A DNA stretch of 64,000 nucleotides, taken from the NCBI RefSeq assembly GCF_000737575.1, contig NZ_CP006270.1, positions 1,801,163 through 1,865,162 on the forward strand. Direction: 5' to 3'. The notes under the pieces are model-generated. The model saw nothing but the letters and a program-made list of their open reading frames with translations, did not search any database and was not told the origin of the DNA. Origin of the DNA: Synechococcus sp. KORDI-49 (GTDB lineage Bacteria > Cyanobacteriota > Cyanobacteriia > PCC-6307 > Cyanobiaceae). Positions 43,995-50,227 of this stretch are shown here, piece by piece (position 1 is the first letter of the stretch; every line of letters starts with the position of its first letter). A program made the position numbers and the translations under genes.

Positions 43995-44726
43995 GTGCAG
44001 CGGATCTATATCGAAGGAAGCAGCAGCTGGATCAAGTTGCGCAGTTCAGTTCGTCGAACGATCAATCTCGTGCTTGCTGCACTGGGTACAGCCATGGCAG
44101 CAACAGCTGTTGTCCCCAGAACAGCTGCCGTGCAGGCTCAGGAGCCTCCTTGCGCTGGCACGGTGCTGCAGCTGTCGATCAACGAGACCGGCCCACTCTC
44201 CATCGATCGTTTCCGTTTCCATCTCCTGCTCAATGGTGAGGGAGATCGCGAGCAGGCGGCCATGGATCAGCTCAATCAGAGACTCTCAACGCTTCGCTTG
44301 CAGCTCAATCCCCTGGTATCAGGGACGCTCACGGTTTCTTCGCCCACCACATCCCGTCAGAGCAGCCGTGTGCGCGTGTCCGGTGAGACGAAAAGGGGGA
44401 ACTACAACACACTGATTCAGTCGGTCGGACGGTTGCCCGGAGTTCGCCTTGTGGGGATGCAGTCGATCCCTGATCAGGACGATTCGGAGACGTTGAAGCA
44501 GAGCTTGATGCAGGCTGGTCTGCGGCGTGGCAAACAAGAAGCTGAGAGAACGGCCAAAGCCATCGGTGCAGCCAGGGTGAAGCTGATCCGCATCAACAGA
44601 ACCAGCATCGGCGGCATTCCGCGGCCGATGCTGAAATCAGTTTCAGAGGATGCGCCATTCAGGCCGGATGAAGCTCCGGATCCAGAGATCGCGGTGCGCA
44701 TGCAGCTGGATTACTGCCTGTTTTGA
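43995..44726 (+). CDS. SIMPL (DUF541) domain protein, exported
   Basis: The 243-residue protein has a signal-like region (about 22-50, ending AVQAQ) preceded by basic residues, and a SIMPL domain with GLRRGKQEAERTAKAIGAARVKLIRI near the C-terminus. The family is periplasmic or outer-membrane linked and poorly understood. Start is GTG 43995. A GTG two bases earlier is out of frame. It converges on the BCCT gene, with only 7 bases between stops, where a weak hairpin lies. Confidence 0.78.
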   Translation: MQRIYIEGSSSWIKLRSSVRRTINLVLAALGTAMAATAVVPRTAAVQAQEPPCAGTVLQLSINETGPLSIDRFRFHLLLNGEGDREQAAMDQLNQRLSTLRLQLNPLVSGTLTVSSPTTSRQSSRVRVSGETKRGNYNTLIQSVGRLPGVRLVGMQSIPDQDDSETLKQSLMQAGLRRGKQEAERTAKAIGAARVKLIRINRTSIGGIPRPMLKSVSEDAPFRPDEAPDPEIAVRMQLDYCLF

Positions 44727-44733
44727 TCCCTAA

Positions 44734-46281
44734 TCACAGAGATTGGGTGTTGATTCTCGACAGCTCCTTCCAGGCCAGGCGGGGGGCGCTCCACAGGGTT
44801 CCGAGCACGAGCGGTGTGACCGGGACGGCAGCAATCACGATGAATGCCTGGAGGGCATCGATGGAATCGGCACCCGATCCGATCCGCAGCAGCACCAGCG
44901 TCAGGCTGCCGATGATCAGAGCCCAGAACAGGCGCAGTGCGGCTGGGGGCTCCTGGCGACCGCTCACCACCATCGCGGCGGCGTAGCTCATCGAATCGGC
45001 ACTGGTGCACATGAACAGCACCACCAGCACCAGGCCCACCAGGATGAACACTCCCGAGATGGGAAGTTGCTGGAGGATCGCCAGCAGCGCTCCTGCGTGT
45101 CCCTCAGCGGCAAGGGGACCGCTGATGGCCCCCGCTTTATCCAGCTCGAGGGCCATGCCGGTGCCGCCGAGAAGTGTGAACCAGATGTTGGTCACCAACG
45201 GACAGAGGATCGCCACGGCCAGCACCAGCTCCCGGATGGTTCGTCCGCGGCTGACTCCTGCAGTGAACAGGCCCATCAGGGGTGCATATCCAAGAAACCA
45301 GCCCCAATAGAAAACGGTCCAGCCATTGACCCAGCCCTCGTTGGCGGAGGTCCGGTTCAGAGCCATCTGGGGAAGATGCGTCAGGTAGGTGGAAAATCCG
45401 CTCACGAAGTGCTGGATCAGAAACCAGCCAGGGCCGAGCAGCAGCAGTCCGCTCGCCATGGCCAGCGTCAGCCATACGTTCAGTTCAGAGAGCCACTTGA
45501 TGCCCTTCTGGATGCCACTCACCGTTGAAGTGGCGAACACCGCCGTCAGCAGCACAACAACCAGGGATTGCATGCCGGCCGTGTCACTGAGCCACGGCAG
45601 TTTTCCCGCCGCATTGCTGAGCTGAAGCGACAGGAACCCCAGCGGTCCGACGGTGCCTGCGATGGCAGCAACCACGGAGAGTCCGTCGGCAAGTGCGCCG
45701 ATCGGCCCCTCCACCATGGCTTTGGGAAGCAACGGCACCAGCAGGGTTCGCGGCCGGAGTGGCTCACCACGTCGCTCCAGGATCGAGAAGGTGATCGTCA
45801 CGGTGGTGGCGACAAGAGCCCAGGCCAGAAAACCCCAGTGGAGAAAGCTGACCGCAAGAGCCGGATCCACCGCAGCCGCACTGCTGCCTTCGATGCCTTG
45901 GAAATGGGGCGCCGGGGACTGGAAATGGGTGAGCGGTTCGGCAGCGGACCAGAACACTCCTCCCCCTGCCAGCAGGGTGCAGATCAGCACCGCACACCAG
46001 TCAAAGAATTTCAGGCTGGGCTTTGCCTCGGGCCCTCCGAGCCTGAGGCTGCCGAGGGGGCTGATGGCCATGCCCATGGCGATCAGGAACAGAACCACAA
46101 CCATCCAGAGCCAGACACCTCCCAGCAGGGAACTCACGAAGGCCTTGCCTTCGCTGGTGAAGGTTTCAGCCAGGGTGAGATCGACAGCAGCCACCAGCAG
46201 AAAGATCAGCAGCGGTCCGGCCCCGACCCAGAGAGGGCTTTCCCGGATCCAGTGGCGTGGGGTCTTGGCGGAATCAGACAT
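44734..46281 (-). CDS. BCCT-family betaine/choline/carnitine-type transporter
   Basis: The 515-residue permease has about 12 membrane helices. The family signature reads FYWGWFLGYAPLMGLFTAGVSRGRTIREL, where BetP-type proteins have FYWAWWISWxP. Two Trp of the aromatic region are Phe and Tyr, and a substrate other than glycine betaine is possible. It is the last gene of a four-gene operon (methyltransferase, dehydrogenase, oxidase, transporter), starting 11 bases after the oxidase stop. It probably imports or recaptures a quaternary or N-methylated zwitterion by coupled transport. Confidence 0.9.
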   Translation of the reverse strand: MSDSAKTPRHWIRESPLWVGAGPLLIFLLVAAVDLTLAETFTSEGKAFVSSLLGGVWLWMVVVLFLIAMGMAISPLGSLRLGGPEAKPSLKFFDWCAVLICTLLAGGGVFWSAAEPLTHFQSPAPHFQGIEGSSAAAVDPALAVSFLHWGFLAWALVATTVTITFSILERRGEPLRPRTLLVPLLPKAMVEGPIGALADGLSVVAAIAGTVGPLGFLSLQLSNAAGKLPWLSDTAGMQSLVVVLLTAVFATSTVSGIQKGIKWLSELNVWLTLAMASGLLLLGPGWFLIQHFVSGFSTYLTHLPQMALNRTSANEGWVNGWTVFYWGWFLGYAPLMGLFTAGVSRGRTIRELVLAVAILCPLVTNIWFTLLGGTGMALELDKAGAISGPLAAEGHAGALLAILQQLPISGVFILVGLVLVVLFMCTSADSMSYAAAMVVSGRQEPPAALRLFWALIIGSLTLVLLRIGSGADSIDALQAFIVIAAVPVTPLVLGTLWSAPRLAWKELSRINTQSL

Positions 46282-46292
46282 GGAAAACGGGC

Positions 46293-47483
46293 TCAGAGAC
46301 GGACAGCTGTGCGCTGGTGGCTCCAGCAGGACAGATCAACGGCGGGTTGGTTCCCACTGGCCAGTCGTGCCAGGGAGTCCCCGATCAACGGGGCGAACTT
46401 GAAGGCCTGACCGGAGCCTCCCGTGAACAGGCTGAGATTCGGGCTGAGCCGATCCAGCACGAAATTCACATCACTGGTCATGGAGTAGGGGCTCATCACC
46501 GTTTCCACGCGCTCCTGCACGCCTTCAACGTTGTTGAACAGAAAGGTGTCAAGCAGTTCCACAAGCCTTGGCGGCGGCTCCGTGGCCATGGCATTGGGCT
46601 CGGCCACGCGGAGCTCCTGGGGAGCCCAGTCGATCCCGGCTTTGATCCGCGGGCGGCCATCAGCCGTGTGGCTGAGAACGGGGAAGCCGTAATAGAGACC
46701 GCCGTCGTCCCCGCGTTTCTGCTGGAAGCAGAACCACTGGGGATAGCGATCGGCCAGGGCCGGATCGACGGTGTAATGGGCCCAGAGCATGGGCCAGACC
46801 TCGAGTTTCGGAGCCAGCCCCAGCGGAGCCAGAAGCAGCTGACTCCAGATGCCGCTGGTCACCACCACCTGGCCTGCGCTGATGTGATGGCCGTTCTCGA
46901 GGGTGACGCCCGCGCCATCGGGATCGATGCCGGCCACGGGGCAGTGTTCGATCAGCTGCTGACCTGCGTTGCGGGCGGTGCGGGTCCAGTGGGCGATCAC
47001 CTTGTCACTGCGCACCGCGCCGGCGGTGGGCTCGAACAGTCCGGTGAAGTCCGGTTTCGGGTTCAGCGGAAACCGTGCCTTGATCTCTTCAGCACGGAGG
47101 GCTTCATAGGGAATGCCCTGGTCGTCCATCACGCGGCGGGCGCCGGGAATCGATCCCTCAATCGTTTCCTCATCCCAGCTTTCGCCGTAGAAGAGCAGTC
47201 CGTGCGTTTCGCGCAGTTGCTCTCCGGCATGGGTTTCCTCCTCCCTCCAGAGGCGATTGGCCTCCTGAGCAAGCCTGCAGAGCACCGGATCGGAGTACAT
47301 CTCGCGGAACATCCGGGTTTCTCCGAAGCTGCTCGCCCTGGCATGGGCCAGGGTCCTGGCCTCCAGCAGCACCACATCGCCGATGCCGTGACGGGCCAGG
47401 GAGGCGGCGCAGCTGAGCCCGGCCATTCCGCCGCCGATGATCACGACAGCGGCCTGGGACGGCAGAGAGGAGGGTTGGGTCAT
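46293..47483 (-). CDS. FAD oxidase of the MSOX/SolA/pipecolate oxidase/NikD family
   Basis: The 396-residue flavoprotein has the FAD-binding VVIIGGGMAGLSCAASLARHG and SSFGETRMFREMYSD, the oxygen-activating Lys281 (RIKAGIDW, aligned with MSOX Lys265) and FTGGSGQAFKFAPLIGDSLARL. The Cys that covalently holds FAD in MSOX, SolA and NikD (CLYTxTPD) is here Ser331 (SPYSMTSD), so FAD is probably bound without that bond. The substrate is a secondary or cyclic amino acid by family precedent. ATGA overlap with the upstream dehydrogenase gene couples the two. Confidence 0.87.
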   Translation of the reverse strand: MTQPSSLPSQAAVVIIGGGMAGLSCAASLARHGIGDVVLLEARTLAHARASSFGETRMFREMYSDPVLCRLAQEANRLWREEETHAGEQLRETHGLLFYGESWDEETIEGSIPGARRVMDDQGIPYEALRAEEIKARFPLNPKPDFTGLFEPTAGAVRSDKVIAHWTRTARNAGQQLIEHCPVAGIDPDGAGVTLENGHHISAGQVVVTSGIWSQLLLAPLGLAPKLEVWPMLWAHYTVDPALADRYPQWFCFQQKRGDDGGLYYGFPVLSHTADGRPRIKAGIDWAPQELRVAEPNAMATEPPPRLVELLDTFLFNNVEGVQERVETVMSPYSMTSDVNFVLDRLSPNLSLFTGGSGQAFKFAPLIGDSLARLASGNQPAVDLSCWSHQRTAVRL

Positions 47484-48532
47484 GCGGCATCTCCGAAGCT
47501 GAGGCCGATGGGGTCGCTGCTGGATTCAGCCACGTCCACCAGAGCAGCCCCAACCGAGAGCCCCTGATCGCGCCGACTCAGGTAGTTGGCGGCCCGCTGC
47601 CGGACCTCGCAGCGCACGAAGGAATACACGTCCTCCGCACCGGCGTTGTTCCAGGCCTCCGGGGAGAACCGCTCGATGGAATCGGCAATCACGGCACCCG
47701 CATTCACCAGGGGATCCGGCAGCACACGGATGCCACGGCGGCGCAGCTCATCGGCCAGTTGCGGGTTCTGGAAGGGGGCGTTGGCAGCCGGAACTACGGC
47801 CTCCGTGCGGAGGGCGTCTGCCATGGCTGCATCGATCAGGCCGGAGATGGAGCAGGGCAGCAGCAGGTCCAGCTTCAGCTCCCACCAGGAGCATCCCTGC
47901 GGCAGCGGCGTCGCGCCGGGTATGGAAGCCCGTTCACGACTGAGATCCACGGTGAAGACCGTCCAGCCGTGGTCCACCAGGGCGCGGGCGACGGTGCCTC
48001 CCACCGCGCCGCATCCGTGCACCAGGGCGCGCCCGGGCTTGGCAGTTTTCAGGTCCGTCTCCAGCACGGCTTCGACGGCGCCCAGGGTGCCGTGAGCCGT
48101 GGCAGCACTGGCATCCACCGGACTGCCGACCGCAGCCAGCACGTGCGGTGTGAGCTCGGTCAGCCGCTCCATGTCCTCAAGGCTGGTGTTGAGGTCACAG
48201 CCGGTGATCATGGCTCCGTCGAGCGACTGCAGCAGCTCGGCGGTGATGTTGATCAGTTCATCCTTGACCGCTGCAGGCTCCGAGGCCCGGGCCACGATCT
48301 TGCCGCCGGCGAAACCGGTGCCATAGAGATCGTGCTTGTGGGTCATCAACCCTGCAAGACGTTCGCCATCAGCGATGCAGGCTTCATCACTGGGGTAATT
48401 GAGAAGACGAAGGCCACCGTTGGCAGGTCGCTTGGCGTCGGTGTCCTCCGCCACCACGAACACCGAGAGGTGATCCGAGACGTGCTCGGCAAGCACCGAG
48501 ACACTCGGTGTGGGTCTTGTTTGGGTTGTCAT
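47480..48532 (-). CDS. Glu/Leu/Phe/Val (ELFV)-type amino-acid dehydrogenase
   Basis: The 350-residue protein resembles leucine/phenylalanine dehydrogenase, with substrate- and catalytic-site residues at Lys66 (LMTHKHD), Lys78 (FAGGKIVARA) and Asp113 (GCDLNTSLEDM), and a Rossmann motif VHGCGAVGGTVARAL at 171-185. It should deaminate an amino acid or aminate a keto acid with NAD(P). Specificity cannot be read from the sequence. ATG 48532 shares one base with the methyltransferase stop (TGATG). The operon context suggests it feeds the oxidase that follows. Confidence 0.87.
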   Translation of the reverse strand: MTTQTRPTPSVSVLAEHVSDHLSVFVVAEDTDAKRPANGGLRLLNYPSDEACIADGERLAGLMTHKHDLYGTGFAGGKIVARASEPAAVKDELINITAELLQSLDGAMITGCDLNTSLEDMERLTELTPHVLAAVGSPVDASAATAHGTLGAVEAVLETDLKTAKPGRALVHGCGAVGGTVARALVDHGWTVFTVDLSRERASIPGATPLPQGCSWWELKLDLLLPCSISGLIDAAMADALRTEAVVPAANAPFQNPQLADELRRRGIRVLPDPLVNAGAVIADSIERFSPEAWNNAGAEDVYSFVRCEVRQRAANYLSRRDQGLSVGAALVDVAESSSDPIGLSFGDAA

Positions 48533-49569
48533 CAGGCGACCTTCTCCATGATCTGGTGGTGCTCGACGTAATCCAGGCTCCACTCACTCGGAGCTTCAGC
48601 GATGCGTTGCTCCAGCTGCGTGTAAACCTGATCAGCGACGCTGTCTCCTGCCACGCTGGCGAAGCTGTGCCGGCTCCAGCTGCGGATGGTGGCCATCAGT
48701 CCTGCTGCAAAAGCAGCGGTGTCTCCGTTCTCGTTCCAGCGGCGGCGGTACGGGCACTTCACATACACCGTGCGTTCGTTCACCAGCCGCAGGCCGTTGC
48801 GATAGGGCGCTGAGGTGGTGTCCTTCAGCGGAGCCATGAACTCCTCTGGAGACTTGTAGAAATTCAGAACCGTTCCACTGCGGTACTGCTCCTCGGAGAT
48901 CACGCCTTCATCAGCCAGGCCACGCCAGATCTGATGCAGCTGGTCATGCACGTTGCGGGTTTCGCCACCGTTGTGACCCAGATAGCGGCCTTCCCCATCG
49001 CGGGAGAGGTTCACGGTCAGCAGGCGCCCGCCGACCTTCAGTTCGCGGCTGCGCAGTTCGAGGATGAACGTCCAGTCCTTCATCGCCTGGGTTGTGAAGC
49101 GCTCCAGTGCTTCTGCATCCCCTGAGGCGAGCACATGGGTATGCGTCTCCAGCTGGCCAGGTGATGCACTCAGCCAGTGCATCGCGGTGGCGGAGAAGCC
49201 GAAGCTCACCGTGTTCGGCCCCACGGAGGGTTCGTAGAAGCTGCGGGCACTCACCAGCACCGTCGGTTTCGCAGGGCGCGGGATCTGCAGGGCCAGGTTC
49301 TCGGCCAGAGCGACGTTGTCATTGCTCGGCAGATCGTTGCCGATCAGGGTCAGGTGGGCCTCGGGCTGGTTGCCATGCAGGCGATCCAGCACTTGATTCC
49401 AGAGACCGACGGCAGTGCCGCCGTCGGCGGCTCCGTAATCGATCAGCACGTGACTGTCAGAGACAGCCAGTTGGTCAACACAAGTCAAGGCCCAGTCCGA
49501 GGCGGCTTCGATGCAGAGGAGTGCGCCTTCGGTCTGCGCGCTGTAACCCGTGGTCATGGCGATGGCCAT
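48532..49569 (-). CDS. SABATH-family SAM-dependent methyltransferase
   Basis: The 345-residue enzyme belongs to the plant-like carboxyl/N-methyltransferase family (Methyltransf_7). The SAM-binding VLIDYGAADGGTAVGLW (41-57), NDLPSND (78-84), RSFYEPSVGPNTVSFGFS and TAMHWLS (128-134) are diagnostic, and GYSAQTEG near the start matches the SAM/substrate loop. Members methylate carboxylates or ring nitrogens (caffeine, trigonelline synthases). It is first in the operon. Start ATG 49569 has GAGG only 3 bases upstream. ATG 49557 is the alternative. The substrate is unknown. Confidence 0.87.
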   Translation of the reverse strand: MAIAMTTGYSAQTEGALLCIEAASDWALTCVDQLAVSDSHVLIDYGAADGGTAVGLWNQVLDRLHGNQPEAHLTLIGNDLPSNDNVALAENLALQIPRPAKPTVLVSARSFYEPSVGPNTVSFGFSATAMHWLSASPGQLETHTHVLASGDAEALERFTTQAMKDWTFILELRSRELKVGGRLLTVNLSRDGEGRYLGHNGGETRNVHDQLHQIWRGLADEGVISEEQYRSGTVLNFYKSPEEFMAPLKDTTSAPYRNGLRLVNERTVYVKCPYRRRWNENGDTAAFAAGLMATIRSWSRHSFASVAGDSVADQVYTQLEQRIAEAPSEWSLDYVEHHQIMEKVA

Positions 49570-49645: not shown

Positions 49646-50227
49646 TCAGGCGGCCTGAAGCAGCTCCCTGAGGCCTGGTTCCAGCTGGGCGAAAGCCCGC
49701 CCCCGGTGCCCGTGATGCTTCTTTTCGCTGAGCGGCATCTCGGCGAAGGTGAGGCCGGTGCCCGACACCTCGAAGACGGGGTCGTAGCCGAAGCCTCCGT
49801 CGCCGCGGGGCTCAGTGGTGATCGAGCCCTCACAGCGACCCTCCACCTCCAGCAGCACCGTCCCGTCGGGTGCGGCCAGGCAAAGGGCAGCGATAAAGCA
49901 GGCAGAACGGTCCTCAACCTCACCCAGAGCATCCAGCAGTTTTGCGATCCGCTCGGGATCTGTGGGTGCATAGCGCGCCGAATGCACACCGGGGGCTCCG
50001 TCCAGGGCCGTGACACTCAGGCCCGAGTCATCGGCCAGGGACCATTCGCCACAGGCGGCCGCCACGGCCCGAGCCTTGATGCGGGCATTGGCGGCGAAAC
50101 TGGCGCCGGTCTCCTCAATGTCCAGACCGCTGGGCTGGGGTTGCACGTCCAGAGGAAGCGCGCCGAGCAGGCCCTGGAATTCGCGGATCTTGCCCTGGTT
50201 TCCACTGGCGATGATCAGACGTTTCAT
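49646..50227 (-). CDS. rdgB: non-canonical purine NTP pyrophosphatase (HAM1/RdgB)
   Basis: The 193-residue house-cleaning enzyme hydrolyses dITP and XTP. It has LIIASGNQGKIREFQGLL, LADDSGLSVTALDGAPGVHSARYA and GDGGFGYDPVFEV, all signature motifs. The ATG overlaps the stop of the upstream phosphohexomutase by four bases (ATGA). A gap of 76 bases separates it from the methyltransferase operon downstream, which may have its own promoter there. No convincing -35/-10 pair was seen. Confidence 0.95.
   Translation of the reverse strand: MKRLIIASGNQGKIREFQGLLGALPLDVQPQPSGLDIEETGASFAANARIKARAVAAACGEWSLADDSGLSVTALDGAPGVHSARYAPTDPERIAKLLDALGEVEDRSACFIAALCLAAPDGTVLLEVEGRCEGSITTEPRGDGGFGYDPVFEVSGTGLTFAEMPLSEKKHHGHRGRAFAQLEPGLRELLQAA

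Follow-up and report, generated by a model that had tools for sequence, protein, structure and literature searches.

A four-gene operon of marine Synechococcus that likely makes and recaptures the betaine homarine

The closest described parallel to the genes considered here is the NikC–NikD branch of nikkomycin biosynthesis in Streptomyces, in which lysine is carried through 1-piperideine-2-carboxylate (P2C) to picolinate. For the remaining steps, N-methyltransferases of the SABATH family that act on nicotinate are known, and BCCT proteins carry betaines, as the family name states. Against these systems we compared an operon in a window of 64,000 nucleotides (positions 1,801,163 to 1,865,162 of contig NZ_CP006270.1, Synechococcus sp. 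KORDI-49), the window being the whole stretch of DNA that was analysed, from a genome assembled as a single contig of 2,585,813 bases. The operon encodes a SABATH methyltransferase (MT), an ELFV amino-acid dehydrogenase (DH), a flavin oxidase of the monomeric sarcosine oxidase (MSOX) family (OX) and a BCCT transporter (BCCT). An earlier note on this DNA had named these families and proposed homarine as the product; the gene set, its single strand and its junctions are borne out by our open reading frame, junction and Pfam reading, and the residue and co-conservation evidence given below supports the proposed product.

We consider it quite likely that the operon makes and recaptures homarine (N-methylpicolinate) by the route lysine, P2C, picolinate, homarine. 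The order of the genes, their families and co-conservation, the catalytic residues and the swapped residues of OX and DH are observed; from these we infer the substrates, the site of N-methylation, the transporter specificity and the osmolyte role as follows. DH would take the alpha-amino group off L-lysine with NAD(P)+, and the resulting keto acid would cyclise spontaneously to P2C. OX would then oxidise P2C by four electrons to picolinate, probably with O2 as acceptor, MT would transfer the methyl group of S-adenosylmethionine to the ring nitrogen to give homarine, and BCCT would take back homarine that leaks out, such that the cell could hold it as a compatible solute. Each gene would then have one job, with no step missing from the scheme. 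The nikkomycin branch differs at both ends, as lysine is deaminated there by what we take to be an aminotransferase (NikC) and picolinate is built into a peptidyl nucleoside, whereas here an ELFV dehydrogenase and N-methylation are proposed. Three points at which this scheme could have failed held, namely the NikD residues of OX, the basic-substrate pocket of DH and the presence of homarine in both Synechococcus strains tested.

To compare residues we aligned the window's proteins with 25 MT, 26 DH, 24 OX and 20 BCCT sequences; the 33 chosen loci held 32 MT, 33 DH, 32 OX and 28 BCCT sequences, near-duplicates were limited, and a split OX (locus L082) and a BCCT with an internal stop (L090) were left out. 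OX matches the Pfam family DAO (E 9e-47), and a profile of its 25 sequences ranks NikD first in the PDB at 148 bits, ahead of the sarcosine oxidase of T. roseum (130), MSOX (124) and N-methyltryptophan oxidase (MTOX, 104). A Foldseek comparison of the AlphaFold2 (AF2) model (pLDDT 77) likewise puts NikD (2q6u) first by E-value, closely followed by MSOX entries. In a residue alignment with NikD, MSOX, T. roseum sarcosine oxidase (TrSOX) and E. coli SolA, with DadA as outgroup, the equivalents of NikD Glu101 and Asp276, which we take to be its distinguishing active-site residues, are Glu109 and Asp285 in 25/25 OX sequences. In MSOX, TrSOX and SolA the Glu101 place is gapped and the Asp276 place is His (Asn in an MSOX mutant entry). 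The family-wide Arg60, Tyr265 and Lys362 are retained as well, and OX thus shares with NikD the equivalents of Glu101, Asp276, Arg53, Tyr258 and Lys358, with Lys281 where NikD has an Arg. A 12-sequence tree joins OX to NikD at 82/80 support. The parallel with NikD had been drawn in the earlier note and is strengthened by these residues; we read OX as a putative NikD-like enzyme of a new subgroup rather than as NikD itself.

DH carries both ELFV domains above their cut-offs (ELFV_dehydrog, PF00208, E 6e-16; ELFV_N, PF02812, E 4e-7), and its best PDB matches are leucine-type and tryptophan dehydrogenases. It has in common with the leucine, phenylalanine, tryptophan and glutamate dehydrogenases the fold family and the catalytic Lys66, Lys78 and Asp113, which are invariant in 27/27 sequences, and it departs from them at the substrate end of the pocket, which is Asn38/Asp284, again in 27/27. 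These two residues align with Lys92/Ser380 of E. coli GdhA in 4/4 MAFFT modes, a profile alignment to GdhA likewise sets Asp284 on Ser380, and the PDB-search alignment to 6acf runs without a gap and agrees on the Asp284 register; GdhA Lys92 is presumably the residue numbered Lys89 in glutamate dehydrogenase. The corresponding positions, Lys89/Ser380 in glutamate dehydrogenase and Leu40/Val294 in leucine dehydrogenase, are stated to set specificity in the portion of the source available (PMC2723916), and DH has neither the Lys/Ser nor the Leu/Val pair. An acid at the Asp284 place predicts a basic side chain on the substrate, and the pocket would suit a basic amino acid such as lysine, in line with the lysine-derived keto acid that the earlier note had suggested. 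A tryptophan dehydrogenase reading was set aside because the pocket Asp is unfit for tryptophan. We know of no ELFV enzyme for lysine.

Since Asp284 would fit any basic side chain, the substrate of DH and OX might instead be ornithine or some other basic amino acid, and MT would then methylate the pyrrole-2-carboxylate or similar heteroaromatic acid formed from it; MSOX has been solved with proline and thioproline, judging by structure titles. N-methylpyrrole-2-carboxylate is no betaine, however, which would leave the BCCT gene unexplained, and homarine is the compound that the accessible text of Heal et al. (PMC8269262) gives as measured in strains WH7803 and WH8102, so that we regard the ornithine route as unlikely and keep lysine as the probable substrate.

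MT matches the SABATH family (Methyltransf_7, PF03492; E 4e-22; 79 bits against a cut-off of 29.8) and is the sole PF03492 match in the window's genome. Its AF2 model (pLDDT 81) has 5f2k as best Foldseek match, followed by plant N- and O-methyltransferases of the family, xanthine N-methyltransferases among them; the 29 best matches are all proteins that we take to belong to SABATH, and MT is 12-21% identical to the solved members. With the coffee trigonelline and caffeine synthases and the mycobacterial fatty acid methyltransferase it shares family, fold and the conserved Trp132, and Asp44, His131 and Trp132 are kept in 26/26 aligned sequences. It differs from other SABATH enzymes in its bacterial operon context and at the place of the N-terminal Gln, which in carboxyl methyltransferases presumably holds the substrate carboxylate (Gln25 of SAMT). 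When MT is aligned with geniposidic acid methyltransferase (8wwq), that place is taken by Ala16, and Ala stands there in 26/26 sequences, though residues 1-12, directly ahead of it, are poorly modelled in the AF2 structure; this leans against ester formation, and MT would methylate nitrogen rather than oxygen, with picolinate as its probable substrate.

The transporter matches the Pfam family BCCT along its length (E 1e-131, 440 bits, residues 19-504), and its nearest solved relatives, which it matches over most of that length, are TmaT and DddT, then BCCT and BetP entries. Glycine betaine carriers of the BetP type have an aromatic box; in the operon's transporter Trp149 and Trp154 are kept, and Phe329, Tyr332 and Val157 occur in 21/21 sequences, with Phe329 replacing a Trp of both TmaT and DddT, Tyr332 a Trp of TmaT (DddT also has Tyr) and Val157 a Tyr of TmaT. 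These differences leave room for a cargo other than glycine betaine, and no more than that; homarine or a related betaine is the proposed cargo.

Several observations weigh against this reading. The DH substrate argument depends on one alignment register, and the alignment to 8gxd has a two-residue gap beside Asp284. The outgroup DadA also has a Glu at the Glu101 place, in a gappy region, and the grouping of OX with NikD is moderate and comes with long-branch warnings. NikD presumably carries covalent FAD at Cys321 and has Trp355, and OX has neither: the covalent-FAD Cys is absent (Ser331; Val/Phe329 in the NikD register) and Gln359 stands in place of Trp355, each in 25/25 sequences. The TM-scores of MSOX entries against the OX model equal or slightly exceed those of NikD, the window's OX sequence by itself ranks the T. 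roseum sarcosine oxidase just over NikD (124.8 vs 121.8 bits), and identity to the former is slightly higher (34.3% vs 32.1%).

These last points would favour OX as an oxidase of sarcosine or another N-methyl amino acid, in an operon that turns over glycine-betaine-like compounds imported by BCCT, and the available part of a study of WH8102 has the gene SYNW0229 annotated as BetT (PMC2874817). Yet the His269 and covalent Cys315 of monomeric sarcosine oxidases are Asp285 and Ser331 in 25/25 OX sequences, the NikD Glu is present, and neither a methyltransferase nor an ELFV dehydrogenase would have an obvious role in breaking down sarcosine. The same portion of that study puts glycine betaine synthesis and ProVWX of WH8102 elsewhere, at SYNW1913-1917 (PMC2874817). 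We set sarcosine catabolism aside on the residues and regard it as extremely unlikely.

For MT, the best solved relative is a fatty acid O-methyltransferase, which tells against N-methylation and would suit a carboxyl methyltransferase with a methyl ester product, such as methyl picolinate, or an indole ester if DH resembled the tryptophan dehydrogenase ScyB. The best NCBIfam match of DH is indeed Trp_DH_ScyB, though at 93 bits it falls far under the cut-off of 600. With Ala for the carboxylate Gln, an Asp in the DH pocket and esters not expected as BCCT cargo, we find an ester product very unlikely and return to N-methylation of picolinate as the preferred reading.

We assessed how the genes are distributed in a draw of 400 family genomes spanning 59 genera. 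Strong MT matches occur in 70/400 (of 72 raw matches, two being weak). For OX the count of strong matches is also 70/400 (195 raw, with E-values of 1e-9 or weaker for all beyond the 70), and for DH it is 71/400 (94 raw). The MT and OX genome sets are identical and the DH set is those 70 plus one genome (G030), and because of this identity the grouping of the genes is not due to chance. Genomes with the set belong to 6 of the 59 genera (7 with G030). In the window's genus (g1), BCCT was found in 28/34 genomes and in 17/19 of high quality, and the six without it are the same six that are without MT; two of these genomes (G216, G261) have a completeness of 98% or more. In a draw from the phylum, matches at E 1e-20 come from 12/291 genomes, which belong to two genera (g1 and g34).

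Gene order was counted in 58 distinct fetched loci that span at least 9 kb and extend 4.5 kb or more past MT; the loci were fetched via matches to operon genes, and those that are genome stretches were chosen by hand. The order MT-DH-OX-BCCT was found in 54/58 of these, and the other four (L072-L075), with MT-DH-OX, all come from one genus (g17), which we take to be high-light Prochlorococcus, with two of the four genomes presumably MIT9215 and MIT9515. MT occurs in 10/200 genomes of g17 (4/66 of high quality), and in six further short loci of that genus (L134, L136-L140) MT is accompanied by DH and the beginning of OX. The g17 trio proteins are 49-56% identical to those of the window. The presumed MIT9515 genome has a BCCT gene elsewhere, and the other three MT-DH-OX genomes have none; such copies without an adjacent BCCT would keep synthesis and have no dedicated recapture. 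The gene set is thus widespread among marine Synechococcus, its occurrence in Prochlorococcus being patchy, and the co-conservation on which the earlier note had staked its proposal is present.

The measured occurrence of homarine fits this distribution in the strains at hand. Homarine was found in both Synechococcus strains tested, WH8102 being the richer, as far as the available text of Heal et al. goes (PMC8269262), with corrected concentrations of up to 18 mM in WH8102 and about 0.2 mM in WH7803 (PMC10134881). WH7803 holds the operon (record CT971583.1), so that a strain in which the operon can be read contains the compound. For WH8102, the portion of the study seen describes a computationally predicted five-gene operon, SYNW0229-SYNW0233, in which SYNW0229 is the gene annotated BetT (PMC2874817), and this layout fits BCCT-OX-DH-MT-HAM1. 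On the other side of the balance, the WH8102 operon is taken from that published predicted layout, homarine differs about 90-fold between the two strains, and diatoms and E. huxleyi also hold homarine, which the operon need not explain.

A further counterpoint is that Heal et al., in the part available, cite a quinolinate origin of homarine while describing the pathways as not characterised (PMC8269262), and picolinate could accordingly arise by decarboxylation of quinolinate, with MT making homarine and with DH and OX serving another step or recycling a related compound. We hold this to be highly improbable, because strong OX matches never occur without MT in the 400 genomes and DH does so in one, Pfam finds no decarboxylase-like gene among the four, and DH and OX together would already form a complete route from lysine to picolinate. 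The accessible text of Boysen et al. calls genetic information on homarine lacking (PMC8269247), and among the matches listed in a search of the published literature, with preprints and most subscription papers outside its scope, no title or abstract opening names a homarine synthesis gene.

Some genomes carry broken copies. MT is split by a frameshift in two assemblies, G234 (L076, C1:267200-268227; presumably CC9902) and G239 (L077, C2:100598-101628), and reads through without one in G089, presumably BL107. OX is frameshifted in G112 (L082, C1:280968-282153), and BCCT has an internal TGA in G267 (L090, C1:2315328-2316863), with the other operon genes matched in both. Such breaks may be sequencing errors or genuine losses, and the handful of genomes in which the operon is damaged or absent offer natural controls. 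The additional DH homologue of G030 (L099, C23, 8552-9580) is about 60% identical and has the same Asn38/Asp284; its 18-kb locus has no MT or OX beside DH, and the G030 genome has no BCCT match. It therefore gives no clue to the substrate, and suggests another use of the same dehydrogenase.

Within the window (Table 1), MT and DH overlap by one base (TGATG) and DH and OX by four (ATGA), and 11 bases separate OX from BCCT, all read directly; a longer GTG reading frame of DH would reach 48583. A HAM1 gene stands in front of the operon in 50 of the 54 four-gene loci, two of the remaining four beginning at MT, and is possibly co-transcribed with the operon in a housekeeping role. A scan for sigma-70 promoters found 0 against 0.7 expected, and terminator-like sites were close to chance (5 against 3.0 expected, sd 1.7). 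The flanking genes are frequently kept, namely PGM-HAM1 at one end of the operon and, at the opposite end, a SIMPL-domain gene, a carotenoid-oxygenase-like gene and HisB; L087, L097 and L098 are among the loci that depart from this. The SIMPL-domain (DUF541) gene lies at 43995-44726 on the plus strand, convergent with the operon; it is 36-52% identical where found, yet at the same place in many loci, and the neighbours HAM1, PGM, carotenoid-oxygenase-like gene and HisB are far more conserved (66-96%).

Table 1. Features of the operon and its upstream neighbour, in window positions.
Feature	Position	Strand	Length	Assignment
MT	48532-49569	minus	345 aa	SABATH-family S-adenosylmethionine-dependent methyltransferase; proposed picolinate N-methyltransferase
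DH	47480-48532	minus	350 aa from ATG	ELFV amino-acid dehydrogenase; proposed L-lysine alpha-dehydrogenase
OX	46293-47483	minus	396 aa	MSOX/NikD-type flavin oxidase; proposed 1-piperideine-2-carboxylate to picolinate oxidase
BCCT	44734-46281	minus	515 aa	Betaine/choline/carnitine-type transporter; proposed uptake or recapture of homarine or a related betaine
HAM1	49646-50227	minus		HAM1-type non-canonical purine NTP pyrophosphatase; separated from MT by 76 bases; Pfam Ham1p_like E 1e-57

We also searched beyond cellular genomes. Scanning viral contigs with two short patterns from the MT alignment gave 58 pattern matches and 0 relatives. Among plasmids, OX matched 117 records, all below 60% identity, and MT 3 records, the best being a SABATH gene at 32% on a plasmid of Rhizobium sp. 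CB3171 (L154, 6226-11339). That gene adjoins a glycine-oxidase-like flavoprotein, a weak radical-SAM/B12-binding match and a membrane-protein-like reading frame, with transposases around, and looks like part of a separate small biosynthetic cluster; it was dropped as a relative of the pathway, its FAD protein being glycine-oxidase-like and not NikD-like. Two other stretches, H14 (Sinorhizobium) and H3 (Halostella), had no annotation shown.

Homarine is a common marine betaine whose pathway or synthesis genes are called not known in the available parts of two studies (PMC8269262, PMC8269247). The operon probably encodes a complete route to it, comprising a first lysine-specific ELFV dehydrogenase, a NikD-type oxidase without covalent flavin, a bacterial SABATH N-methyltransferase and a BCCT carrier devoted to recapture. 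This route would be widespread among marine Synechococcus and occur patchily in high-light Prochlorococcus. If so, an ELFV lysine dehydrogenase would be a new enzyme activity, the genes would offer knock-out targets in cultured strains, and producers of homarine could be read from metagenomes and transcriptomes.

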